In this document: piece by piece, positions 18,526 through 34,370 of the stretch | Layout of the letters: the number at the start of each line of letters is the position of its first letter | Numbering within the stretch: the first letter of the stretch is position 1 | The notes under the pieces: generated by a model | Database searches by the model: none | What the model was told of the DNA's origin: nothing | The model's input: the letters and a program-made list of their open reading frames with translations, nothing else | Position numbers and translations under genes: made by a program | Source of the DNA: Mageeibacillus indolicus UPII9-5 | GTDB lineage: Bacteria > Bacillota > Clostridia > Saccharofermentanales > Fastidiosipilaceae | DNA length: 64,000 nt | Direction: 5' to 3' | NCBI RefSeq assembly: GCF_000025225.2 | Contig: NC_013895.2 | Location: forward strand, 1 to 64,000

Positions 18526-19297
18526 ATTTTTCCGTCTCCAAATTACTGTCGGGGATGAAGATGGGAATAAAACTGAAGTTAAGCAAGACCCGGATTTTGG
18601 CTGTCGGCGGGTGGTCGGCAATTATGCGCTGGGGGAAAAACTGACTATTACGGTTGGCATTGCCGGGATACCCGAGGGGTATCATCTTTCTTGTAGTGAA
18701 AGCAATATATACCCTGCCAAAACAAGCGGCTATAGCAAATTTATAGTTGAATATAAGCTCAACAATGGCGATAAATTGCTTGTGTGAATTCCCTTTGCTC
18801 AATATGGAATGATACTCAAATAGACCCTAAGTATGACGGCATATTTTTATTGCGAGCGCAGTGGTAATGGGGCGGTATTTACTGGCGATACTCCGGTAAA
18901 TAGTGATATAATCGTTTATGAAGTCTTTACGAAGAAAGCTGACCCGGCACCTGGGCCGGATCCTAAGGTGAATCCGCCTATTCCGGCACCTGATCCAGAT
19001 CATACGCCGAAGCTGGCTGTCACGGAACTTGAGCCAAGCCAAGTTTTTCCATCGGTTTCTCTGTCGGCATCTATATTTGAACTAAAGTTACAGCCGGAAT
19101 CTTTATCAGTGCCAGAAAATTTTGTGCCGATTGTTTCTACGAAGAAGCAGGGGATCATCCCTAAGACTGGTAAGGTGGAGTCGACAAAGCTTCCTCTGTC
19201 ATTAGCAGCGGTGGGCGTCCTTATTGTCATCTGCGGAATTATTGTGAACAAAGAATGCCGGGAGAAAGTATCAGAAAGTAATAGAAAGGAATACATT
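18526..19297 (+). pseudogene. C-terminal remnant of a sortase-anchored surface protein
   Basis: Joined frames give a surface-protein tail. A first piece (to about 18787) contains ITVGDEDGNKTEV and GNYALGEKLTITVGIAG. A second piece in another frame reads NDTQIDPKYDGIFLLRAQW. A third piece (from about 18860) holds a Pro-rich wall linker (PGPDPKVNPPIPAPDPD), IPKTG at 19157-19171, a hydrophobic helix and a KECREK tail, i.e. an LPXTG-type sorting signal. The N-terminus is absent; the remnant begins right behind the alkD-like gene. The last frame has lost its stop and runs in frame into the ABC gene at 19298. Confidence 0.8.
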
Positions 19298-21022
19298 ATG
19301 AGGAAAGCTTCTAATGCTATGACTGATGCCAAGAGCTACGTTAAGCTGTTTTTTAAGGAAAATAAGCTTGTTACTTGCCTGTCAATGATAATTTTTATTG
19401 CATTTTCAGTCATTTCTGCCGCTATTTCCTGGATTCTGCAAGTAATATTCGATTACATGGCCGGCAAAAGTCAATTTACGTTTAGGGGCATTCTGCTAAT
19501 TGTAGCTTGCTTTATACTAACTATAACTGCATTATTTGCCATCAAGCACAGTGTGTATCCACATTTCCTTGAAAAAGCAATGAATCAGTATAAAGAGGCG
19601 GTTATTAAAAGGCTGTTTAAAAAGAGTTATAGTGATTTCTTATGTGCTAATTCCGGGGCATATCTTTCGGTGCTGACTAACGATTGTGAGCGTATACAAG
19701 AAAAGTATTTGAAACAGATCTTCAGCCTGGCGGAAAACGTTGTTATGTTGTTAACTTCGCTTGCACTCATGATTTACTATAGCCCTCTGCTTACGGTTAT
19801 TGCGCTTGCGGTTGCTACGCTTCCGATGGCGTGTTCGCTAGTTACGGCCGGCGGTATTGCCAAGCGAGAGGAACAGGTTTCTAAGTCAAATGAACTTTAT
19901 ACGGCTTTGACTAAGGACGTTTTGGGTGGTGTATCAGTCGTTAAGAGTTTTAAGGCGGAACAGGAGGTTGTCGGCCGTTACCGGAGTCAGTCAATGGAAC
20001 TTGAGCATACTAAGAAACTGCGCGAGAAAACTATGGTAACGGTTTCGGCGTTTGGTACGGTTTCCAGTCTTTTTACTCAATTGGGTGTGTTACTGGTTGG
20101 TGCGTGGATGGTTAATGCCCAGATAGGGTATATTACCGCTGGTATGGTGCTTGCTTTTACTAATTTGATGAATGGTGTGCTGCAGCCGATTGCCAGTTTG
20201 CCCAAAATATTGGGGGAGATGCGCGGTGCGAAAAAGCTTGTTGCCAAAATGGCGAATTATATGCGTACGGCCAAGGAAGATTTGGGTGATATACTTGACG
20301 AACCTGTTGCAAGTCTTGTTTTGAGTGATGTTTCTTATGCTTATGATGTAGAGCATAAGGTATTGAAACATGTCAATCTCAGCTTGCAGGCTGGTAAATC
20401 TTATGCCATAGTTGGCCCTTCCGGGTCGGGCAAGAGTAGTTTGATTAATCTGCTTATGGGATACTACACGGATTACGAGGGCAGTGTGCGGCTTAATAAC
20501 CATGAACTGAGCAAAGTGAGTAAGAGCTCGCTTTACGATAAAATAACTCTTATGCAGCAATCGGTTTTTGTGTTTGATGCATCAATTTTGGATAATATTA
20601 CGTTGTTTAAGCCTTTCCCGGTGTCAGAGGTAGATCAAGTGATTCATTTGGCTGGGTTGGATGATTTGATTGCTGCTAAGGGTAAGGATTATCAGTGCGG
20701 TGAGAACGGAAGTCATCTTTCTGGTGGTGAGAAGCAGCGGATTGCTATTGCACGTAGCTTGTTGAAAAAATCTGAGATTTTGTTGGTTGATGAGGCTACT
20801 AGTGCGTTGGATAATGAGACGAGTGCGAACGTCACTCAGTCCATCCTTGATTTGCAGGGTATCCTTCGTCTGGTAATTACACACCGTTTAGATGTGAATG
20901 CGCTTAAGCAATATGATGAAATTCTGGTTATGAAAGATGGGGAACTTATTGAGCGGGGGCGGTTTGATGACCTTATGGCTCAAAAAGCTTATTTCTACTC
21001 GCTTTATACCGTATCTATGTAG
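19298..21022 (+). CDS. ABC transporter, fused permease and ATPase
   Basis: This 574-residue half-exporter has about six N-terminal membrane helices and a nucleotide-binding domain. That domain carries Walker A GPSGSGKSS, signature LSGGEKQR, Walker B ILLVDEATSALD and switch His in VITHRLD. It should act as a homodimer or pair with another half. An open frame extends upstream to 18833, but that part is the surface-protein remnant. The ATG at 19298 has GAAAGGA six bases upstream and gives a normal family length. Cargo is unknown. Confidence 0.85.
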   Translation: MRKASNAMTDAKSYVKLFFKENKLVTCLSMIIFIAFSVISAAISWILQVIFDYMAGKSQFTFRGILLIVACFILTITALFAIKHSVYPHFLEKAMNQYKEAVIKRLFKKSYSDFLCANSGAYLSVLTNDCERIQEKYLKQIFSLAENVVMLLTSLALMIYYSPLLTVIALAVATLPMACSLVTAGGIAKREEQVSKSNELYTALTKDVLGGVSVVKSFKAEQEVVGRYRSQSMELEHTKKLREKTMVTVSAFGTVSSLFTQLGVLLVGAWMVNAQIGYITAGMVLAFTNLMNGVLQPIASLPKILGEMRGAKKLVAKMANYMRTAKEDLGDILDEPVASLVLSDVSYAYDVEHKVLKHVNLSLQAGKSYAIVGPSGSGKSSLINLLMGYYTDYEGSVRLNNHELSKVSKSSLYDKITLMQQSVFVFDASILDNITLFKPFPVSEVDQVIHLAGLDDLIAAKGKDYQCGENGSHLSGGEKQRIAIARSLLKKSEILLVDEATSALDNETSANVTQSILDLQGILRLVITHRLDVNALKQYDEILVMKDGELIERGRFDDLMAQKAYFYSLYTVSM

Positions 21023-21372: not shown

Positions 21373-23100
21373 ATGAGGAATATGATCCTAAATATGAATG
21401 TATTAAAGGGAATAACTACTCTTGCAAAAACATTTAAAACCGGTGATAGAGCCCCGTTAATCTACTCTTCATTTTATTTTGCACTGAGCTTAATAAAACT
21501 ATTTTTACTGCCAATTATTACTGTTTATATAATGAAAAGCAACTATCTTATATCAACGATAATAATAGTAATTTATTTTATTATAACTTATGCATTGATT
21601 TTAATAAAAGAAATGCTTATAGACGCGTCGAATTCTTCAAGAATGAAAAGGATAGAGGAGTCTTACTCTGCTTGCATAAAAATAAATTATGAGTTTTTTG
21701 AGTCAAAAGAAGGAAGAAGTCTGTTTTCTAAGGCTGTTAGTTCAACGAATTCTACTACTTGCCCATTTAGCAAAATTTATTTATCTATATCAGATTGCTT
21801 ATATACGTTAGTATACATGATTTCTATAATTATATATAGCTTGAAGTTTGATGAAATCTTTTTTTTAAAAAGCATTGTATTCTCGATTTTAATGGGTGCG
21901 GTAATACTTTTTGATAATTTTAATATTAATAATGTGCTTAAAAAAACAATTGACTCATTTATAGGCAAAGAGAAAAACTTAAATTATTTAAGGAAGATTG
22001 CAAAGCAATTTGAAAAAGCGATTGTATTAAAAGATTTCAACGCTATTGGTTTATACCAGGATAAATATATTGCTGAGGAAAATGGTATAAAGAATGAACT
22101 TTCTGCAATTAAAAAAAATATGTTTCTAAAATTAGGATTTTCTGACTTAGGTAAAATATTAATTTCATTTACCTATGTTTTATGGGGGATTACAACATTC
22201 AATCTAACAGTGCTTATTTTTACGATACAATTTCTAATTGTTAGCAATAAATTTTTCGACGCCATTTTTGAACTTAATAATAATATAGAGAAAATCAGCT
22301 ATTATTTCAAATTTGTCGAAAATTCAGAGCCTAAAATTAAGAAAATTTATATTGATAAATTAAACAGCATAGAGTTTAAAAATGTATACTTCCACTATAG
22401 CGGATCGGACTTTTCTCTGGAAAACATTAACCTGAAATTAGAAAATAACAAGAAAATAGGGATATTCGGTTCAAATGGCTGCGGCAAAACAACTATAGTT
22501 AAGCTGTTGCTAGGCTTTTACAAGGTAACAAAGGGAGAGATACTAATTAATGGGATTAGTATAGATGAAATATCTAACCTTAATGAATTAATTGCTTGCG
22601 TTTTTCAAGACGACATAATAATACCTGCCAGCCTCAAAGAAAATATTTTGTTTGGGAAAGCAATGAATATGAAACTTTTTAATGAGGCTTTGGTTAAATC
22701 ATCGTTTAATGAAGTGATGCAGAAAAACAATTTGGAAAATCAAACTCCGTTAAATTCATTTTATATAGAAGGAGCGAAAGATCTTTCTATGGGTGAAAGC
22801 CAGCTGCTATATTTAGCCAGGTCTATCTATAAAAATACCAAAATGATTATTTGGGACGAGCCTTCGAGTAATTTAGATCCTTTTAGAGAGCTTGAGTTGT
22901 TTACCAAGTATAAAAATATTGGTGAAGAGTCAATGGGTATTTTTATAAGTCACAAAGCCAGCAACATCAAAATGTTTGATGAAATTGTATTTATGGAAAA
23001 TGGAAAAATTGTTGAGAGAGGCAGCTTTAAAAGCCTAATGGATTTGAAAGGCAAGTATTATGAATTATATAGAAACCAGGAAAAAACTTTTGCAAATTAA
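21373..23100 (+). CDS. ABC exporter half A (permease-ATPase)
   Basis: This 575-residue half-transporter is AT-rich. Hydrophobic helices fill the first ~300 residues. The ATPase has Walker A GSNGCGKTT and Walker B IIWDEPSSNLD, but its signature is LSMGESQ instead of LSGGQ, so one composite ATP site may be degenerate. The switch His (FISHKAS) is present. It overlaps half B by 41 bases, so the two surely form a heterodimer. The start is uncertain: ATG 21373 lacks an RBS, while ATG 21394 (MNVLKG) has GAGGAA 13 bases upstream. Confidence 0.85.
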   Translation: MRNMILNMNVLKGITTLAKTFKTGDRAPLIYSSFYFALSLIKLFLLPIITVYIMKSNYLISTIIIVIYFIITYALILIKEMLIDASNSSRMKRIEESYSACIKINYEFFESKEGRSLFSKAVSSTNSTTCPFSKIYLSISDCLYTLVYMISIIIYSLKFDEIFFLKSIVFSILMGAVILFDNFNINNVLKKTIDSFIGKEKNLNYLRKIAKQFEKAIVLKDFNAIGLYQDKYIAEENGIKNELSAIKKNMFLKLGFSDLGKILISFTYVLWGITTFNLTVLIFTIQFLIVSNKFFDAIFELNNNIEKISYYFKFVENSEPKIKKIYIDKLNSIEFKNVYFHYSGSDFSLENINLKLENNKKIGIFGSNGCGKTTIVKLLLGFYKVTKGEILINGISIDEISNLNELIACVFQDDIIIPASLKENILFGKAMNMKLFNEALVKSSFNEVMQKNNLENQTPLNSFYIEGAKDLSMGESQLLYLARSIYKNTKMIIWDEPSSNLDPFRELELFTKYKNIGEESMGIFISHKASNIKMFDEIVFMENGKIVERGSFKSLMDLKGKYYELYRNQEKTFAN

Positions 23101-24796
23101 TTTCAAGGCAATAAGGTATATAAAAACTTTAGACTGGAAATTTTTAAGAAATTTAGCAATTTTATCTGTTCTAAAAGTTATAAAAAATTGGTTCATATTT
23201 ATAATTTTATTTATGCTTAGCAAAAATCCAATAACAAAGCAAAGCGTTATAATTCTGTTTGTAGTGTTTTGCCTGCTAACTACACTGGTAAATATATTCA
23301 CAGTTTTCAGGAAAACAGATACTAACTATTTGAGAAATAAATATAATAATGTGCTGTCAAATAAAAGGTTAGAATTATCAAAGGACCTTGCACGTGATGG
23401 TGAATTGTTGACCTTATCTCAGCTGCTAGAGGATTACCAACAATATAATGGAGGGCCAATTATATTTTTACATAAAAACTTGGAAGAGCTATTTGAAATG
23501 TTTTTTGTATTTTTGATTTCAACGGTGTATTTATATTTTTCATTGGACAAGGGCTTAATGTTAATTGTGTCTATATTCGCGTGCATACAACTTGTAATGA
23601 AAAATAAATTGAATATTAAATTGAAAAAGATAGATGAAGATAATCTTTCATATCAAAAAGTTATGACACATGGGAATCGGCTTGGTGACTTTTATTTTTC
23701 TTTGTTATCTAGTGAATTTCCCAAAATGAAAAGTGTTAGGAATAATAATTCAGATGAATTTATTGAGAAAAAATATAGTGAGTTCCTAAGCCCAACTATA
23801 AAAAACTTAGAAAAATATCAGCAAAAAAAATTAAGCATAAAATTTCAAGCGTATTTTCTAGTCGCTTTGGGCATAATTGCATTTCTAATTATATATATAC
23901 ACCAAAAAAGCATTCTGAATTTAGGCGTAATTTTTATGGTATCAAACTTATTTTTATCGCTTGAAAATTTATCAAGTCTTACTTATGAGCTTGATGATAA
24001 CTCTAAAAGATTAGCTGATTTTTTCAAGTTTTTAAGTAAAAAGCCTGATGAACTATCTCATAAAAGAGAAAATATGGATGAAAATGAAGTCCTCAAATTA
24101 AACAATTTAAACTTTTCTTATGGCAAGAATTTTCCCATACTGGAAAATATAAATTTTACTTTCTCAAAAAATAAAATCTATTCAATTGTAGGAGAAAATG
24201 GGCAGGGGAAATCAACCCTTGTGAAATTAATTTTGAATTTAATTAAAAGCGAAAATAAGGAAATGATAAGCGTAAATAGCACGCTAAAAGACAATTATAT
24301 TTCATACAATCTGTCAAACAATGAAGTGTTTTCCTTCACTATTGGTGAAAATATTGCTTTGCATACTGCATATAGCAAAAATAATGTAAACAAGTTGGCT
24401 AATGATCTTAGATTTTTAATCGATCAAAAAGATATAAGCGGGATTAAGGTTGGAAATGATTACGGAAATAGCGGTAGGGAGTTATCCGGTGGAGAAATAA
24501 AAAAGATGATCTTCATAAGATTATTGTACTTTGACCGTAGTTTGGTCATATTAGATGAACCGATTTCTTCTTTAGATATAGACAGTGAAAGAGAATTATA
24601 TGATGCAATAAAGCAGCTTAGAGCGGGCAGGACTATCATAATAGTGTCGCATAGGTTAACATCTTGCCTTTTTTCAGATGAGGTTATAGTTTTGAAGGAT
24701 AGAAGCATATATGCCAATGGAGATCACTTGACTTTATATAAAGAAAATTCATATTATAGGGATTTTTTCGATGCTGCTAGGAATTTAACGCGATAG
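23060..24796 (+). CDS. ABC exporter half B (permease-ATPase)
   Basis: The 578-residue partner of half A starts inside the end of that gene, with AAAGG seven bases before the ATG. Membrane helices fill the first ~300 residues. Walker A is GENGQGKST, the signature LSGGEIKK, Walker B LVILDEPISSLD and the switch His IIVSHRL. All are canonical, in contrast to half A. Small peptide or lipid cargo is common for such pairs. A strong terminator follows, closing the AT-rich block. Confidence 0.88.
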   Translation: MNYIETRKKLLQINFKAIRYIKTLDWKFLRNLAILSVLKVIKNWFIFIILFMLSKNPITKQSVIILFVVFCLLTTLVNIFTVFRKTDTNYLRNKYNNVLSNKRLELSKDLARDGELLTLSQLLEDYQQYNGGPIIFLHKNLEELFEMFFVFLISTVYLYFSLDKGLMLIVSIFACIQLVMKNKLNIKLKKIDEDNLSYQKVMTHGNRLGDFYFSLLSSEFPKMKSVRNNNSDEFIEKKYSEFLSPTIKNLEKYQQKKLSIKFQAYFLVALGIIAFLIIYIHQKSILNLGVIFMVSNLFLSLENLSSLTYELDDNSKRLADFFKFLSKKPDELSHKRENMDENEVLKLNNLNFSYGKNFPILENINFTFSKNKIYSIVGENGQGKSTLVKLILNLIKSENKEMISVNSTLKDNYISYNLSNNEVFSFTIGENIALHTAYSKNNVNKLANDLRFLIDQKDISGIKVGNDYGNSGRELSGGEIKKMIFIRLLYFDRSLVILDEPISSLDIDSERELYDAIKQLRAGRTIIIVSHRLTSCLFSDEVIVLKDRSIYANGDHLTLYKENSYYRDFFDAARNLTR

Positions 24797-24904: not shown

Positions 24905-26140
24905 ATGAAACTATTCAACGGTAAACTAAACAAATCTTTGGTGCTGGTTTTGGCAGGATGCCTGGCCGTGAGTTCGGTTGGCTGCGGCACAGCTGGAAGC
25001 GAGGACGCTAACAAGTCAGATAAGGGCATGCAAGCCGGAAAAAGTGTTGATCAGGCTATGGCGGCGGACAGCACGCTTATTGAAAAATCCGGCGATGGAA
25101 GTGCCAAGATCGTGCAGCCGGGAGCCGGCGGTTCGCAAAAAATTAAACCGGCGGAGCATCTTATGCCGCAATTGGCTGAGTATAAATTCCCTTACGCCGG
25201 GCTGAAACTGAGTTTCCCCGAAAAAATAAACAAATTGATTGAGCAGAAGAAGGTCGCCCTGATGCCGCGCGAAAAAGCGGACAAAAATGGTGATTTGGAA
25301 TATGCGTTTTTGACCTTGAGCAATATGACCGCTGAGCAGAAAGATGCAGAGATTGAGTTGTCCGGCGACAGCTATGATAAATGGGCGGACGGACTGGAAC
25401 GTATCGGCAGCATCGGATTTGCCGCGGCTTCGATGAAAGAAGCGGATGTAAAAGCGGTGGCTAAGGGCGACAAAATTAAGGAAATCGGCAAAACTGAAGA
25501 CGGTAAATATAAATATTATTTGGTGTTGAATTCTAAAGCACCGGCCGATGTAACCGGTGAATTTGAAAAAACTACGATAGGTATTGAAAAAATGATGCCG
25601 ATGCCGCAAAAATTTGGCTCCGCGTTTGTTGATCCGGCTGATTTGCAGGCTGGAGATAAAAATGCGATCAGTCAGTTGAACGTTAAAACGTTGGATGGCG
25701 AAAAATTTACGGCGGCGGAATTCGGCAAATATGATTTGACTTTGGTAAATGTTTTTGCCACTTGGTGTACGGCTTGTGTCGGTGAATTGCCGGAACTTGA
25801 AAAGCTTTATCAAGATATGAAGGGTAAAGGGGTCAATGTTATCGGTTTGGTAACGGATACGGTACAGGGTGTGGCCAACGATGGCAAGGTTACGGTGGAC
25901 GAGAAGGCTTTGGCGTTGGCGAAAAAAATTCGGGAGAAGGCGAAGGTTTCTTTCCCGTTGCTGCAACCTGATGCCGCGCTGTTTGCCGGCTATGTCAAGG
26001 GCGTAACTTCTTATCCGGAAACTTTGTTGGTTGACCGTAATGGCAATGTAGTCGGGGATCCGATTAGCGGGGCACATAGTTACGGCGATTGGAAAAAATA
26101 TATTGAGGCTGCTCTGGCAAAAGTTAAAGGTAAAAAATAA
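24905..26140 (+). CDS. TlpA/ResA-like thioredoxin-fold lipoprotein
   Basis: The 411-residue protein begins with a lipoprotein signal ending SSVGC (Cys near 27). A long middle part of about 230 residues, with no domain I recognise, precedes a thioredoxin-like domain with the active site ATWCTACVGELPEL near 283-296 and the cis-Pro region SYPETLLVDRNG near 370. TlpA-type proteins exchange disulfides outside the membrane. The next genes encode a small CXXC membrane protein and a membrane iron-sulfur protein, suggesting an electron relay that keeps this thioredoxin reduced. GGAGAAGG precedes the ATG. Confidence 0.88.
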   Translation: MKLFNGKLNKSLVLVLAGCLAVSSVGCGTAGSEDANKSDKGMQAGKSVDQAMAADSTLIEKSGDGSAKIVQPGAGGSQKIKPAEHLMPQLAEYKFPYAGLKLSFPEKINKLIEQKKVALMPREKADKNGDLEYAFLTLSNMTAEQKDAEIELSGDSYDKWADGLERIGSIGFAAASMKEADVKAVAKGDKIKEIGKTEDGKYKYYLVLNSKAPADVTGEFEKTTIGIEKMMPMPQKFGSAFVDPADLQAGDKNAISQLNVKTLDGEKFTAAEFGKYDLTLVNVFATWCTACVGELPELEKLYQDMKGKGVNVIGLVTDTVQGVANDGKVTVDEKALALAKKIREKAKVSFPLLQPDAALFAGYVKGVTSYPETLLVDRNGNVVGDPISGAHSYGDWKKYIEAALAKVKGKK

Positions 26141-26187
26141 TCATGGCAGCTTGGGAGATGGAACGGTGTAAAGCCAGGGCAGTACGC

Positions 26188-26247
26188 ATGAGGCGAATGA
26201 TGGGCGGCATAAAGGGCCGAATTATGAGGCGAATTATCGGTCATATA
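26188..26247 (+). repeat. 36-bp in-frame duplication at the CXXC-protein start
   Basis: ATGAGGCGAAT occurs at 26188 and 26224, each preceded by a purine-rich AGGG stretch. The two ATGs are 36 bp apart and in frame, so a start at the first copy would make a protein with a repeated N-terminus (MRRMMGG and MRRIIGH). This is a third example of a duplicated translation start in this window. Confidence 0.65.
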
Positions 26248-26385
26248 GGTCAAGCGAGGTACTTGGGCGTGGCGTTTGTCGTACTGGGGCTGATATTCAT
26301 GGGCTTTGGGATATATCGCGGCGAAGTGGAAATTGTGCTTGCCAAGGCGGTCCGTGTGTGTATGGAGTGTATAGGAATTGGCTAG
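26224..26385 (+). CDS. Small CXXC membrane protein, CD1871A-like
   Basis: This is one membrane helix (YLGVAFVVLGLIFMGFGIYRG) followed by EVEIVLAKAVRVCMECIGIG at the C-terminus. The CMEC motif at the very end and the IxRGE motif after the helix match the CD1871A-type CXXC proteins of Clostridia, which are about 45 residues. I prefer the ATG at 26224 (53 residues) with AAAGGG seven bases upstream; ATGs at 26143 and 26188 are in frame. It lies between a thioredoxin-like lipoprotein and a membrane ferredoxin, so a redox-relay role is inferred. Confidence 0.75.
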   Translation: MRRIIGHIGQARYLGVAFVVLGLIFMGFGIYRGEVEIVLAKAVRVCMECIGIG

Positions 26386-27322
26386 GAAAAACAAAAAATT
26401 GAGTGAATGGCCGCGGCATCGGATGCAGATTTTGTGGGCGGCCCTGACGAACAGTTATGTTACGGGTTTTGTATCCGGCAAAATTTACACCGGCAATCTT
26501 AAAAAACTCTGTGTCCCGGGGATGAATTGTTATTCTTGTCCCGGGGCCAGAGGGGCTTGTCCCATCGGGTCGCTGCAAGCGGTGATCGGGCATTACGATT
26601 TTAAATTTGCTTACTATCTTATTGGTTTCATGTTTTTTGTGGGAGCAATTTTGGGGCGATTTGTTTGTGGGTGGCTTTGCCCGTTTGGCCTGATTCAGGA
26701 TCTACTGCATAAAATTCCTTTGCCCAAACGCATCAAAAAAATCAAAACTTTTCGCGGTGATAAGTTCTTACGCAAATTAAAATATGTTTTCTTGGTTGTT
26801 TTTGTGATGATTTTGCCGTTGGTGTTGGTGGATATAGTTGGTCAAGGTGCGCCGTGGTTTTGTAAGCTTATCTGTCCGGTAGGCACGCTCGAAGGCGGTT
26901 TGCCCTTGGTGTTGTTGAACAAATCCATGCGGGGCGCGATAGGTTTCCTCTATGCCTGGAAAAATGTTATTCTTGTACTGACGATTATCGGTTCGGTGCT
27001 GATTTATCGACCGTTTTGCAAATATGTCTGTCCGCTGGGCGCAATGTATTCGTTCTTTAACCCTATTTCTATATTTAAATATAGACTTGACGAGGCGAAA
27101 TGTATTAACTGCGGAGCCTGCGCTCGGGTTTGCAAGATGCAGTGCAATCCAGTACAAAACTGTAACGCTTTGGAGTGTATCCGTTGTGCGCAATGTGTTA
27201 AAGTTTGCCCGACAGGGGCCATTTCCAACGGCTTCGGTTGGCGGGTGCAGGATATTTTGGCGCAGGAAAAAGGCATAAGCTTGCCGGCGGCTCCGGCGGT
27301 AAATGAGGTAACGGGGAAATGA
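26378..27322 (+). CDS. Membrane 4Fe-4S protein (NapH/NosR-like)
   Basis: The 314-residue protein has several membrane helices with two CxxxCP motifs facing the helices (CGWLCPFG near 97 and CKYVCPLG near 217). At the C-terminus are two ferredoxin-type clusters (CINCGACARVC near 242, CIRCAQCVKVCPTG near 268). This is the architecture of NapH/NosR-type electron conduits, which pass electrons through the membrane. It starts with TTG overlapping the end of the CXXC gene, with GGAG about ten bases upstream. It probably feeds electrons from cytoplasmic ferredoxin to the CXXC protein and the TlpA-like lipoprotein. Confidence 0.85.
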   Translation: MARKNKKLSEWPRHRMQILWAALTNSYVTGFVSGKIYTGNLKKLCVPGMNCYSCPGARGACPIGSLQAVIGHYDFKFAYYLIGFMFFVGAILGRFVCGWLCPFGLIQDLLHKIPLPKRIKKIKTFRGDKFLRKLKYVFLVVFVMILPLVLVDIVGQGAPWFCKLICPVGTLEGGLPLVLLNKSMRGAIGFLYAWKNVILVLTIIGSVLIYRPFCKYVCPLGAMYSFFNPISIFKYRLDEAKCINCGACARVCKMQCNPVQNCNALECIRCAQCVKVCPTGAISNGFGWRVQDILAQEKGISLPAAPAVNEVTGK

Positions 27323-27325
27323 CGG

Positions 27326-28006
27326 ATGAAACTGTTGGTTGTTGAGGACGAGCAGGATTTGCGCGAAAGTATTGCTGAAGGGCTGCGGCTTTCCGGTTAT
27401 GCGGTGGATACTGCGGCAGATGGCGCGGCGGGTGAAGATATGCTTGCGGCAGGCAACTATGATTTGGTTGTTTTGGACATAAATCTGCCCTATTTGGACG
27501 GTTTCACTTTGTTGGAGCGTCTGCGTGCTGTAAATAAGGAAATTCGGGTGATTATCTTGACGGCTCGCACAGATATTGATGACTTGGTGCGCGGCTTGGA
27601 TACCGGGGCCAATGACTATCTGGTCAAACCGTTTCATTTTGTCGAACTGGAGGCGCGGATCCGGTCTTTGCTGCGGCGGCGGCAGGTGCAGGAGGATTTG
27701 CTGATAACTTGTCAGGGTTTTTCGTTTAATTTGAAAACGAAGGCGGTAAGCTGTGCCGGTGGTGAGTTGCGGCTGACATCCAAGGAGTTAAGTATTCTCG
27801 AATATCTTTTGCTGAATCGTGGCCGTCATGTTTCGCAGGAAGAATTGTTGGAGCATGTGTGGGAAGATGGGATGAATGAATTCAGCAACACGGTGCGAGT
27901 CCATGTTTCGGCTTTGCGCAAGAAGCTGAAGGCGGCAACCGGTAGGGTGGTCATTACTAATGAAATTGGGCGCGGTTATATAATTGAGGCGGACGGCACT
28001 GAGTGA
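27326..28006 (+). CDS. OmpR-family response regulator
   Basis: The 226-residue regulator has a receiver domain with acidic residues EDEQ near 6-9, the phospho-acceptor Asp in LVVLDINLPYLDG near 51 and Lys in YLVKPFH near 101. A winged-helix domain (LTSKELSILEYLLLN... YIIEADG) follows. It starts four bases after the iron-sulfur gene, so it probably belongs to that operon and controls the redox module. The signal is not apparent. Confidence 0.92.
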   Translation: MKLLVVEDEQDLRESIAEGLRLSGYAVDTAADGAAGEDMLAAGNYDLVVLDINLPYLDGFTLLERLRAVNKEIRVIILTARTDIDDLVRGLDTGANDYLVKPFHFVELEARIRSLLRRRQVQEDLLITCQGFSFNLKTKAVSCAGGELRLTSKELSILEYLLLNRGRHVSQEELLEHVWEDGMNEFSNTVRVHVSALRKKLKAATGRVVITNEIGRGYIIEADGTE

Positions 28007-28022
28007 GTGGGGTTGTGGCAAG

Positions 28023-29387
28023 ATGAAAGACGGTTATGGGGCAAAAGAGCGTAAAAGGCCGTGGTTGCGACTACCACGGCTGCTATTATTGCGGTTGCGA
28101 AATTGCTCGATTATGGTAAAACTTTTGACGGCGGCTTTGCTGATTTTTGGCATCATGGTAATAACGGCTATTTCTTTAATTGAGTACAAGCAGGCTTTGA
28201 TGCATGAAGAAATTGAGCGGAAAATCAGTGAGGGTGCGGTGAATTTGCCGTTTAATGGTGGTGACGGCAGCAGTATGGTCATAATTGGGGAAGCGCAGAT
28301 CAATACGATGGCTGAATATCGCCTTTTTGTCGGCTATGTGTTGGCTGGAACACTTACCGTTGGTGGTGGGGTATTTATGGCGGTTATTGTCCTGGTCTTG
28401 CGGCCGCTGAAAGTTTTGACGCGTAAAATTGAGCAGGTGGATATCAACAATATCGCCGCGATGCACGATGACTTTGTTTTGACTTGTGGTAGCTATGAGT
28501 TGCGTGAGCTTTCTGCCGGTTTTCAATCTGCATTGGACAAAATATACGCGGATTACGAAAAGCAGAAGCGTTTCAGCAGCAATGTGGCGCATGAACTTCG
28601 CACGCCTTTGGCTGTATTGTTGATGAAACTTGATGTCTATAGGAAGCGGCGGGCGGCATCAGCGGATCCTTTCGCTGCGAAGGACTCGGCAAGCGCAGTG
28701 GTTTCGACAGACTCGGCAGCCCCAATGGCCCCGGCAGCTTTGGCAGCTCCGGGAACCGAGGACGAATTGCTGGAGATTTTGCGACGTAATCTGATCCGCT
28801 TACATAAACTGGTTGAGGATATTTTGCTGTTGACCCGGGAAGAAACGCATCCTAAGACTTTGATTGATGTCAATGCTCTGATTGATGAAATTATCGTTGA
28901 CCGAGGTGAGCAGGCTGACGCGAAAGGGGTGGAGTTGAAAACTTCGGGGGCAACTTCCGGTTCAGAATTGAACATTTGTACTGACGAGGTGGCTTTGGCC
29001 AGAATCATAGCCAATTTGGTCGATAACGCGATTAAATACACTCCACGCGGGGGTTTTTGCGAAATCTCAGCCGGCAGGACGTCATCACCGGACGGGGTGA
29101 ATATTGAGGTGCGCGATAATGGGATCGGGATTCCAGACGCGGAAAAGTCAGCGGTTTTCGGCATGTTTTATCGGGTGGAGGGCTCGCGTAATCGAGCTAC
29201 CGGGGGGAGCGGCATAGGCTTGGCGATTGTTGAGGCGGCGGTGAAACGATTGGGTGGATCTATCACTATTGTGGACAATGTACCAAAGGGGTCGATTTTC
29301 CGCTGTTTCATACCGGATGCTTCCGTATCCGACTCCGGATTCAACTACACTTCCGCCTCTTGCTCAGGCTCAAGTTGTGGCAGATGA
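28023..29387 (+). CDS. Sensor histidine kinase with DHp insertion
   Basis: The kinase has two membrane helices (about 28-50 and 105-130), a HAMP-like region and the H-box SSNVAHELRTPLA (His near 190). N-box ANLVDNAIKYTP and G motifs RDNGIGIPD and GGSGIGLAIV follow. Between the two DHp helices sits an Ala/Ser/Pro-rich insertion of about 38 residues (about 209-246, AASADPFAAK to AALAAPGTED). I chose ATG 28023 over a TTG at 27984. It pairs with the regulator just upstream. Confidence 0.9.
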   Translation: MKDGYGAKERKRPWLRLPRLLLLRLRNCSIMVKLLTAALLIFGIMVITAISLIEYKQALMHEEIERKISEGAVNLPFNGGDGSSMVIIGEAQINTMAEYRLFVGYVLAGTLTVGGGVFMAVIVLVLRPLKVLTRKIEQVDINNIAAMHDDFVLTCGSYELRELSAGFQSALDKIYADYEKQKRFSSNVAHELRTPLAVLLMKLDVYRKRRAASADPFAAKDSASAVVSTDSAAPMAPAALAAPGTEDELLEILRRNLIRLHKLVEDILLLTREETHPKTLIDVNALIDEIIVDRGEQADAKGVELKTSGATSGSELNICTDEVALARIIANLVDNAIKYTPRGGFCEISAGRTSSPDGVNIEVRDNGIGIPDAEKSAVFGMFYRVEGSRNRATGGSGIGLAIVEAAVKRLGGSITIVDNVPKGSIFRCFIPDASVSDSGFNYTSASCSGSSCGR

Positions 29388-29446: not shown

Positions 29447-29523
29447 GGGTGGTTAGCTCAGCTGGTTAGAGTACTTGCTTCACACGCAAGGGGTCGATGG
29501 TTCGAGTCCATTACTACCCACCA
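29447..29523 (+). tRNA. tRNA-Val (anticodon CAC)
   Basis: The 77-base gene folds fully. The acceptor is GGGTGGT with ACTACCC (one G-T pair), the D arm GCTC/GAGT, the anticodon stem CTTGC/GCAAG with loop TTCACAC, and the T arm GATGG/CCATT with TTCGAGT. Discriminator A and an encoded CCA follow. Anticodon CAC reads GUG. It is followed by its own terminator. Confidence 0.95.
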
Positions 29524-31721: not shown

Positions 31722-32837
31722 TTATTTGCAGCAGCAGCAAGCTACGTCGTAAGCGGTGATTTCATCAAAGGTGAATCTCGGAACTTCAACAGTCTTGGTT
31801 TCAACTTTCTTGCAAACCAAAGGACGACGAAGAGCTTTTTCGTAAACTTGAGCAGCACCGTAGTATTTTACAGCAGGAGCAGCAAATTCACAGGTCGGTA
31901 CATAGATGGTGAAGTAAGAAGCGGTGTTCGGGACATCGTCTTTCTTAGCAGCATCTTTCTTAGCAGCGGCTTTGCCAGGTACTTTAGCGGTGTTGTCGCA
32001 TAAGGAGCAAGCACGCAGGGTTACTTTGTACTTTTCAGCCAAGTCGTTGATCAGGTTGATCTTGGCGGCAGCTATTTTAGCTTTGGTGGTGAGTTTGGAG
32101 ACAACACCATCAGCTGAGCTTCTTTCGGTATAGAGAGCCAGCTTCTCAAGAACACCAGCATATGCTTTACTGTTAAGTTTGGTTTGTAATGCAACAATTT
32201 CTTTCCCGTTGGCTTTAAGTTGATCTGCTCTGATCTCGCCTTGCAATTCTACTCCCAGGTCGCCGAATTTGACGGATGATTTTTTTGTTAGCCATTCGGC
32301 GATTTCATTATCTCCCGGCTTGCCTTCTAGAATTTTTTCATTCTGATCGATCAGATTTTTGAGCTTTTCGTAATCCGCCTTTAAAAGTTTTTTCCCTTCT
32401 ACAAGAAAAGCACCAGATGTTATACTTTTGCCATCTTTACTAAGTAGATAATAAGAAAAGTTTTTTCCCGGAATTTTTATCCCCTCGGCCAGTTCACGCA
32501 ATTTCGGCGTAGCCAGAATTTCATTGTTGGCGGAATCGAGATCGAATTGTGCTCGGCAACGTGCATCGCCTAATGCTTGAATGGTTTTGGCATCACTAGT
32601 AACAGCATTTAAAGCCTTGTCGTACTCTTTGAGCGAGGCTTTGAAATCGTCGTCAACGAGTTCTTTGTAGATAACATCCTTCTTGACTTCTTTGGTTTCG
32701 GTCGGCAGAGCAAAACCGTAGTCCTTCAGGAGATCGAGCTCATCCTTGCTCCAGTCATCGTTGGCAGCGAAAACGCCGGAAGCAAGAACCATGGACATTG
32801 TCAACACGGCTGACAATACTTTTAATCCTTTGTTCAT
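31722..32837 (-). CDS. Secreted protein A with CCCCK C-terminus
   Basis: I do not recognise this 371-residue family. A Sec signal peptide (MNKGLKVLSAVLTMSMVLA... cleavage near SGVFA) is followed by a charged, helical-looking N-terminal region. The middle (about 118-250) differs from copy B. A Lys/Ala-rich linker (GKAAAKKDAAKKDD) leads to a C-terminal part with Cys at VPTCEF and LVCKK and the last residues ACCCCK. No LPXTG signal or membrane anchor is visible. GGAGG lies upstream of the ATG, and the gene has its own promoter and terminator. Confidence 0.85.
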   Translation of the reverse strand: MNKGLKVLSAVLTMSMVLASGVFAANDDWSKDELDLLKDYGFALPTETKEVKKDVIYKELVDDDFKASLKEYDKALNAVTSDAKTIQALGDARCRAQFDLDSANNEILATPKLRELAEGIKIPGKNFSYYLLSKDGKSITSGAFLVEGKKLLKADYEKLKNLIDQNEKILEGKPGDNEIAEWLTKKSSVKFGDLGVELQGEIRADQLKANGKEIVALQTKLNSKAYAGVLEKLALYTERSSADGVVSKLTTKAKIAAAKINLINDLAEKYKVTLRACSLCDNTAKVPGKAAAKKDAAKKDDVPNTASYFTIYVPTCEFAAPAVKYYGAAQVYEKALRRPLVCKKVETKTVEVPRFTFDEITAYDVACCCCK

Positions 32838-33260: not shown

Positions 33261-34370
33261 TTATTTGCAGCAGCAGCAAGCTACGTCGTAAGCGGTGAGT
33301 TCATCAAAGGTGAATCTCGGAACTTCAACTGTCTTGGTTTCAACTTTCTTGCAAACCAAAGGACGACGAAGAGCTTTTTCGTAAACTTGAGCAGCACCGT
33401 AGTATTTTACAGCAGGAGCAGCAAATTCACAGGTCGGTACATAGATGGTGAAGTAAGAAGCGGTGTTCGGGACATCGTCTTTCTTAGCAGCATCTTTCTT
33501 AGCAGCGGCTTTGCCGGATGCTTTAGCGGTGTAGTCGGCTAAGGAGCAAGCACGCAGGGTTACTTTGTACTTTTCAGCCAAATCGTTGATCAGGTTGATC
33601 TTAGCGGTAGCTACTTTAGCCTTAGTGGTGAGTCCAGAAACGGTAGTATCAGAAGTTCTGAGAGAATTTTCTCCTCCATAAGCTTCTTCAACTTTGGCAA
33701 CTAAAGCGAAGTATTTAGCATCGTACTTCTTAACCGCTTTTTGCAATTCTTCGTAATTTGCTTTAGCAAGATCACCATTTTTTTCGCCTTGAACACCCAA
33801 GAAGGACTGAGCTTGATTTAACTCTTCAGCAGTCATTTTAGTAAATTTTTTGTTTTCTTTAATCAAATCATTGAGTTTCTTGGCGTCGGCAGCAAAATAA
33901 TTACCTTCCGGCACTTTATAAACTTCACTAATTTCAGGCTTTTCGTATTTGCCGTCCTTGGAAGGGAAGCGGTGCGTATCATATTTAGAAACATGTTCAA
34001 TTCCTTGAGCCAAGTCCATGAACTTACGAGTTGCCAGAATTTGGTTGTTGGCGGAATCGAGATCGAACTGAGCTTGGCAACGTGCATCGCCCAAGGCTTG
34101 GATGGTTTTGGCGTCTTTTCCAACAGCCTCCAGGGCCTTGTCATATTCTTTGAGTGAGGCTTTGAAATCGTCGTCAACGAGTTCTTTGTAGAGAACTTCC
34201 TTCTTGACTTCTTTGGTTTCGGTCGACAGAGCAAAACCGTAGCCGCCCTTCTTCAGGAGATCGAGCTCATCCTTAGTCCATTCTGGATTTGCATCAACAG
34301 CGAAAACGCCGGAAGCAAGAACCATGGACATTGTCAATACGGCTGACAATACTTTTAATCCTTTGTTCAT
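33261..34370 (-). CDS. Secreted protein B with CCCCK C-terminus
   Basis: This 369-residue paralogue of protein A has an identical signal peptide, an almost identical first ~110 residues and an almost identical last ~110 residues ending YDVACCCCK. The middle (about 118-255) is hardly alignable, and RACSLCDNT of A is RACSLADYT here. Function is unknown. The mosaic pattern suggests either strong diversifying selection or replacement of the central cassette by recombination. GGAGG precedes the ATG. Confidence 0.85.
   Translation of the reverse strand: MNKGLKVLSAVLTMSMVLASGVFAVDANPEWTKDELDLLKKGGYGFALSTETKEVKKEVLYKELVDDDFKASLKEYDKALEAVGKDAKTIQALGDARCQAQFDLDSANNQILATRKFMDLAQGIEHVSKYDTHRFPSKDGKYEKPEISEVYKVPEGNYFAADAKKLNDLIKENKKFTKMTAEELNQAQSFLGVQGEKNGDLAKANYEELQKAVKKYDAKYFALVAKVEEAYGGENSLRTSDTTVSGLTTKAKVATAKINLINDLAEKYKVTLRACSLADYTAKASGKAAAKKDAAKKDDVPNTASYFTIYVPTCEFAAPAVKYYGAAQVYEKALRRPLVCKKVETKTVEVPRFTFDELTAYDVACCCCK

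Follow-up and report, generated by a model that had tools for sequence, protein, structure and literature searches.

Organization of the cluster

The locus described here lies in the first 64,000 nucleotides (nt) of contig NC_013895.2 of Mageeibacillus indolicus UPII9-5; this whole stretch is referred to as the window. Positions 24905-29387 carry a compact cluster of five genes, all on the (+) strand. Open reading frames (ORFs), domain matches and the sequence itself bore out the order proposed in an earlier reading of the DNA letters (the sequence-only reading): a TlpA-like lipoprotein with a CTAC motif, a small CxxC membrane protein ending in CMEC, a NapH-like iron-sulfur membrane protein, a response regulator and a kinase, with each ORF at the coordinates as first read. 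The intergenic gaps were 2 nt, -8 nt and 3 nt, followed by an overlap or 16 nt depending on the kinase start (ATG at 28023 or, alternatively, TTG at 27984). The first three genes are interpreted here, with a probability of about 0.7, as a relay carrying electrons across the membrane to hold an outside thioredoxin in its reduced state, the task of CcdA/DsbD elsewhere. The following features were distinguished.

24905..26140 (+), TlpA-like thioredoxin-fold lipoprotein, 411 amino acids (ORF; AhpC-TSA 50 bits, Redoxin 40 bits; lipoprotein-type N-terminus; NapH-linked thioredoxin lineage)
25766..25777 (+), CTAC redox-active pair, residues 288-291 of the lipoprotein (WCTAC in the sequence)
26143..26385 (+), CD1871A-family small membrane protein, 80 amino acids (NF040920; one transmembrane helix at 40-58; positively charged N-terminus)
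26359..26370 (+), CMEC pair, residues 73-76, at the very C-terminal end of the small protein (CMECIGIG; 36-sequence alignment)
26378..27322 (+), NapH-like membrane iron-sulfur protein, 314 amino acids (Fer4_5 and two Fer4 matches; conserved cysteines; AlphaFold model)
26510..26560 (+), outside cysteine group C45, C51, C54, C61 of the NapH-like protein (CVPGxNCYSCPGAxxxCPIG; not in E. coli NapH)
26666..26680 (+), first inner CX3CP pair C97, C101 (common to E. coli NapH)
26861..26875 (+), second outside pair C162, C166 (CX3CP; not in E. coli NapH)
27017..27031 (+), second inner CX3CP pair C214, C218 (common to E. coli NapH)
27101..27208 (+), cytoplasmic 2x[4Fe-4S] ferredoxin-type domain, C242-C277 (Fer4 matches; structural matches to ferredoxin domains only)
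27326..28006 (+), OmpR-type response regulator (Response_reg, Trans_reg_C; relatives beside the module at four other loci, see below)
28023..29387 (+), sensor histidine kinase (HisKA, HATPase_c; two transmembrane helices and an outside loop of ~50 amino acids)

Proteins of the putative relay

The first product qualified as a TlpA-like thioredoxin lipoprotein by its Thioredoxin/AhpC-TSA fold (AhpC-TSA domain at residues 256-383), its CxxC and its export signal. The N-terminal ~210 amino acids ahead of the thioredoxin domain (window 24905-25640, +) had no Pfam match. Long TlpA proteins (340-437 amino acids) were likewise common among the module-linked ones.

The small protein belonged to NCBIfam family NF040920, 'CD1871A family CXXC motif-containing protein' (64 bits, twice the cut-off of 32). 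Both CMEC cysteines were invariant in 36 aligned sequences (the window protein and 35 relatives), nearly all of which displayed (I/V)G(I/L/V)G after the CxxC. The protein has a single predicted transmembrane helix, and from its basic N-terminus the CxxC is predicted to lie outside the cell. Paper searches returned no published function for the CD1871A family; the family is already named, and what is added here is its constant pairing with a NapH subfamily and its link to the absence of CcdA. Conjugative transposon CTn5 of C. difficile 630 spans CD1845-CD1878a (PMC3158075). By its number the namesake CD1871A falls within CTn5, and the family may therefore also travel on mobile elements, as far as gene numbering alone can tell.

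The NapH-like protein fell within the Fer4_5 superfamily (PF12801; 64.3 bits vs 22) and displayed the inner CX3CP pairs. Its scores stayed below the curated cut-offs for NapH proper (TIGR02163, 64.7 vs 213.05 bits; NF007013, 50.7 vs 234 bits). Among Pfam hits up to E = 1, no module protein matched the CcdA/DsbD membrane domain (PF02683, PF13386), and Pfam detected no flavin mononucleotide (FMN)-binding domain in the five cluster proteins, which sets the protein apart from flavinylated NapH-like members. The AlphaFold model was confident (predicted local distance difference test 85.6, predicted template modelling score 0.83); a structure search with it gave no PDB match at E 0.001 or better, only ferredoxin-domain matches, none covering the membrane part.

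Eighteen cysteines were invariant or missing once in the subfamily (132 sequences). Twelve of them, the two inner CX3CP pairs and eight ferredoxin-type ligands, were common to E. coli NapH (sequence from the annotated K-12 genome), while C45, C51, C54, C61, C162 and C166 were without counterpart there. Charge counts over the 132 sequences, together with hydropathy of the window protein, placed these six in predicted outside loops, whereas the remaining twelve would lie inside or along the inner face.

These cysteines also bear on a different version of the relay, in which the CD1871A CxxC helps to hold an iron-sulfur cluster at the NapH interface and the cluster reduces thioredoxin directly, as in ferredoxin:thioredoxin reductase. 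CxxC(I/V)G(I/L)G shows hardly any variation down to its final residue and occurs with NapH in every case, which fits a fixed structural interface, and the outside NapH cysteines could furnish the remaining ligands. A dithiol is, however, the simplest reading of a CxxC beside a thioredoxin, and the catalytic chain of ferredoxin:thioredoxin reductase was not among the Pfam matches up to E = 1; the interface cluster is therefore considered unlikely, if less so than the alternatives discussed below.

The window NapH-like protein shared 64-73% identity with sequences from other families, compared with ~37-45% (BLAST) to module-bearing members of its own family, in which only four of the 12 genomes displayed the module. 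Horizontal gain of the module by the window genome is therefore suggested.

Conservation of the three-gene unit

The sample of relatives comprised 98 genomes, from which 51 relative loci were fetched besides the window; 80 further loci, most with organism names, were gathered across Clostridia plus Treponema and other Spirochaetota. CD1871A was found in 52 of the 98 relatives, and the NapH-like gene adjoined it in each of the 51 relative loci. Across 130 loci (Clostridia, Spirochaetota) the NapH subfamily was encoded directly beside CD1871A in nearly all cases, often with the 8-nt overlap. Strong scores of the NapH-subfamily profile were restricted to the same 52 genomes plus G056 and G095, whose NapH-like gene was cut by a contig end, and weaker matches elsewhere corresponded to other Fer4_5 or ferredoxin-type proteins. 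In 108 of the 130 loci the pair was adjoined by a thioredoxin-fold gene; 105 of these 108 proteins displayed a lipobox or another N-terminal export or membrane segment according to a simple motif and hydropathy rule. An independently annotated plasmid record from Peptoclostridium acidaminophilum likewise showed genes for TlpA, CD1871A and a 4Fe-4S protein close together, TlpA and CD1871A being separated by a transporter gene of opposite orientation. The three redox genes grouped by the sequence-only reading thus do occur together, and they form a conserved core far beyond chance, present in many anaerobes of gut and soil.

Outside the module the genes varied. The outer neighbours scanned were mutually unrelated (e.g. 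EF-G, PfkB, an AMP-binding enzyme and a glycosidase), and a fixed substrate enzyme nearby was therefore ruled out among them. The 777-amino-acid neighbour in L126, tagged as MsrB by the motif scan, was actually an M56 peptidase. Several clients or partners were also sought in the window genome and rejected: methionine sulfoxide repair (neither MsrA nor MsrB found), cytochrome c maturation (no ResB match) and a VKOR-type oxidation partner (none found).

Alternation with CcdA

Module and CcdA were strongly anti-correlated. The 98 relatives comprised eight genomes with both, 44 with the module only, 27 with CcdA only and 19 with neither (Fisher p = 8.6e-6); the corresponding numbers in a phylum sample were 14, 32, 210 and 72 (p = 1.7e-8). 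PF13386, used as a second CcdA probe, gave the same picture. The anti-correlation persisted in a family-stratified test (p = 6.7e-9; here the contig-cut G056 and G095 were scored as having the module, and G074 as having CcdA on the basis of PF13386), these p-values being optimistic since genomes inside one stratum were treated as independent. Family f3 alone comprised 22 genomes with the module only and 10 with CcdA only; no genome displayed both, and a single one displayed neither. Alternation of this kind supports replacement of CcdA by the relay in many species.

Some genera were uniform for one state, so genomes are not independent and the pattern could in principle be purely phylogenetic, with a module function unrelated to thiol reduction. 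This is very improbable, as the signal held by family, by genus majority (p = 0.006) and inside genus g18, where eight genomes displayed the module only, three CcdA only, none both and one neither.

Within the same order, the CcdA gene of CcdA-bearing genomes usually adjoined a TlpA gene. No CcdA homologue was detected near the module by BLAST in the 51 relative or the 80 further loci; a ccdA/DsbD gene beside the same lipoprotein, which the sequence-only reading had named as evidence to the contrary, was accordingly not encountered there. In the thioredoxin tree, which has several long branches, three label changes sufficed to separate the NapH-linked from the CcdA-linked proteins, compared with an average of 14 for shuffled labels; the tree indicates that the two groups are separate lineages.

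These results also concern the proposal that the NapH-like protein and CD1871A serve a different redox partner, which they would reduce or oxidise, e.g. the quinol pool, the thioredoxin merely assembling or repairing their cysteines. Characterised NapH and NosR relatives work in quinol-linked respiratory chains, CX3CP mutations in them disturb partner assembly (PMC5928378), and an adjacent thioredoxin is missing from some module loci. No respiratory oxidoreductase was found, however, among the linked neighbours scanned, and the thioredoxin is suggested as the client both by the alternation of module and CcdA and by the separation of the thioredoxins into two lineages. Such a partner seems improbable, more so than the interface cluster.

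The two-component system

In 13 of the 130 loci a regulator was encoded no more than two genes away from the unit, as against eight among 982 genes farther out, a modest excess. Regulators in L034, L156, L176 and L180 were 46-59% identical to that of the window, while the other 20 regulator hits remained below 45%. Among the 98 relatives, strong regulator matches (E 1e-55 or better) were restricted to the window genome and G018, beside the module in both. The regulator of G018 (L034 5134-7066, -) displayed an in-frame TAG and its kinase was split between frames, while the CD1871A and NapH-like genes were intact; the two-component system of this genome looks degraded.

The sequence-only reading had given the relay its own two-component system. 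This holds for the window and a few other loci, but the linked system, although recurrent, is not part of the core; its probable role is to adjust expression in some of the species. The kinase had further been proposed to sense the redox or thiol state. The predicted outside loop of the window kinase contained no cysteine, which rules out thiol sensing by loop cysteines and leaves that proposal without sequence support.

Other features of the neighbourhood

Two ABC transporter ORFs were located directly upstream of the module (window 21373-24796, +). Their G+C content was 28.7%, compared with 47.2% for 24905-27322 and 50.1% for the genes of the two-component system. A further ABC transporter frame (18833-21022, +) displayed an odd N-terminal part in which a hydrophobic stretch comes after an IPKTG motif, resembling a sortase-type tail merged into a transporter. 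The only tRNA gene of the window, tRNA-Val (CAC), was found directly 3' of the operon (29447-29523, +). Near the module were also two secreted-looking paralogues (31722-32837, -, and 33261-34370, -), 68% identical, with eight to nine cysteines each and both ending in CCCCK. That they might be clients of a thiol-reducing system is only a guess.

Proposed electron path and points against it

The predicted locations of the cysteines in the NapH-like and CD1871A proteins suggest the following path. A low-potential cytoplasmic donor, probably ferredoxin, would reduce both [4Fe-4S] clusters in the C-terminal domain of the NapH-like protein. From there electrons would pass to the inner CX3CP cysteines (C97, C101, C214, C218), from these to the outside cysteines (C45, C51, C54, C61, C162, C166) and on to the CxxC of CD1871A at the outer membrane face. 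This CxxC, presumably acting as a dithiol, would reduce the CTAC of the TlpA-like lipoprotein by thiol-disulfide exchange, and the reduced lipoprotein would in turn reduce outside disulfides. We infer the outward direction because ferredoxin has more reducing power than a thioredoxin disulfide. The inner and outside cysteines may hold clusters or form disulfides, a choice that PMC5928378 leaves undecided for PceC-type relatives.

Several points weigh against this interpretation. The topology rests on charge counts and hydropathy. A joined CD1871A-NapH model, obtained via an in-frame read-through in L066, displayed a confident CD1871A helix; it came without usable inter-chain confidence and was not used as evidence. 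Twenty-two of the 130 loci had no detected adjacent thioredoxin gene, some of them near contig ends, and the module-linked thioredoxin-like protein of L034 was without CxxC in the scan. The donor might be quinol, since NapH relatives are thought to oxidise quinols. Genus g12 displayed both module and CcdA in five of five genomes, and family f2 included 14 genomes with neither; the function is therefore not always needed. The window genome itself displayed CcdA, a TlpA-like lipoprotein and TrxA in a row (~397.6-400.2 kb, L001, minus strand), its only CcdA/DsbD domain matches (PF02683, PF13386) lying at 398 kb. In this genome the relay is therefore an addition to a conventional CcdA system and not a replacement.

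The relay proposed by the sequence-only reading is thus sustained by co-occurrence and by the anti-correlation with CcdA, the latter extending over relatives, phylum sample and families. Replacement of CcdA/DsbD in the window genome, the thiol-sensing kinase and a generally dedicated two-component system were not sustained.

Comparison with known systems

CcdA/DsbD and the clostridial CcdA-TlpA operons likewise associate a membrane electron supplier with an outside TlpA-like thioredoxin encoded by an adjacent gene. CcdA, however, uses a cysteine pair and a cytoplasmic thioredoxin, whereas an NapH-like iron-sulfur protein and a CxxC helper, without DsbD_TM match, are encountered here. Ferredoxin:thioredoxin reductase of plastids and cyanobacteria also uses iron-sulfur electrons to reduce a thioredoxin disulfide; it is soluble and inside, in contrast to the predicted membrane-bound, outward-facing relay, and had no Pfam match in the cluster proteins.

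The nearest published arrangement is ModRS-msrAB2-eTrx-CcdA of Fusobacterium nucleatum (PMC12288474), which unites an outside thioredoxin, a membrane electron carrier and a two-component system in one cluster. It includes CcdA and methionine sulfoxide reductase, while the present cluster displays CD1871A-NapH and neither CcdA nor Msr. Modules of the NapH/NosR/PceC type share the membrane core with inner CX3CP pairs and send electrons outside (PMC8238504, PMC5928378); NapH and NosR also share the two C-terminal [4Fe-4S] clusters (PMC8238504, PMC5928378). They differ by a flavinylated domain or respiratory subunit, in place of which six extra outside cysteines, CD1871A and a thioredoxin are found here. 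No published description of the whole relay system was found.

Significance

CcdA/DsbD-type proteins are the standard route of reducing power to thioredoxins outside the cytoplasm. Many anaerobic Clostridia were without CcdA by the profile searches used, and the module would explain how their outside thioredoxins stay reduced. A role is thereby proposed for the named but functionless CD1871A family and for a distinct NapH-like subfamily. On balance, though with somewhat less assurance than for the relay at this locus, it is likely that a ferredoxin-fed iron-sulfur relay, unrelated in sequence to CcdA/DsbD, reduces outside disulfides via a tiny CxxC protein in many Clostridia and some Spirochaetota. 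If true, this would represent a separately evolved transmembrane transfer of thiol-reducing power, driven by low-potential electrons.

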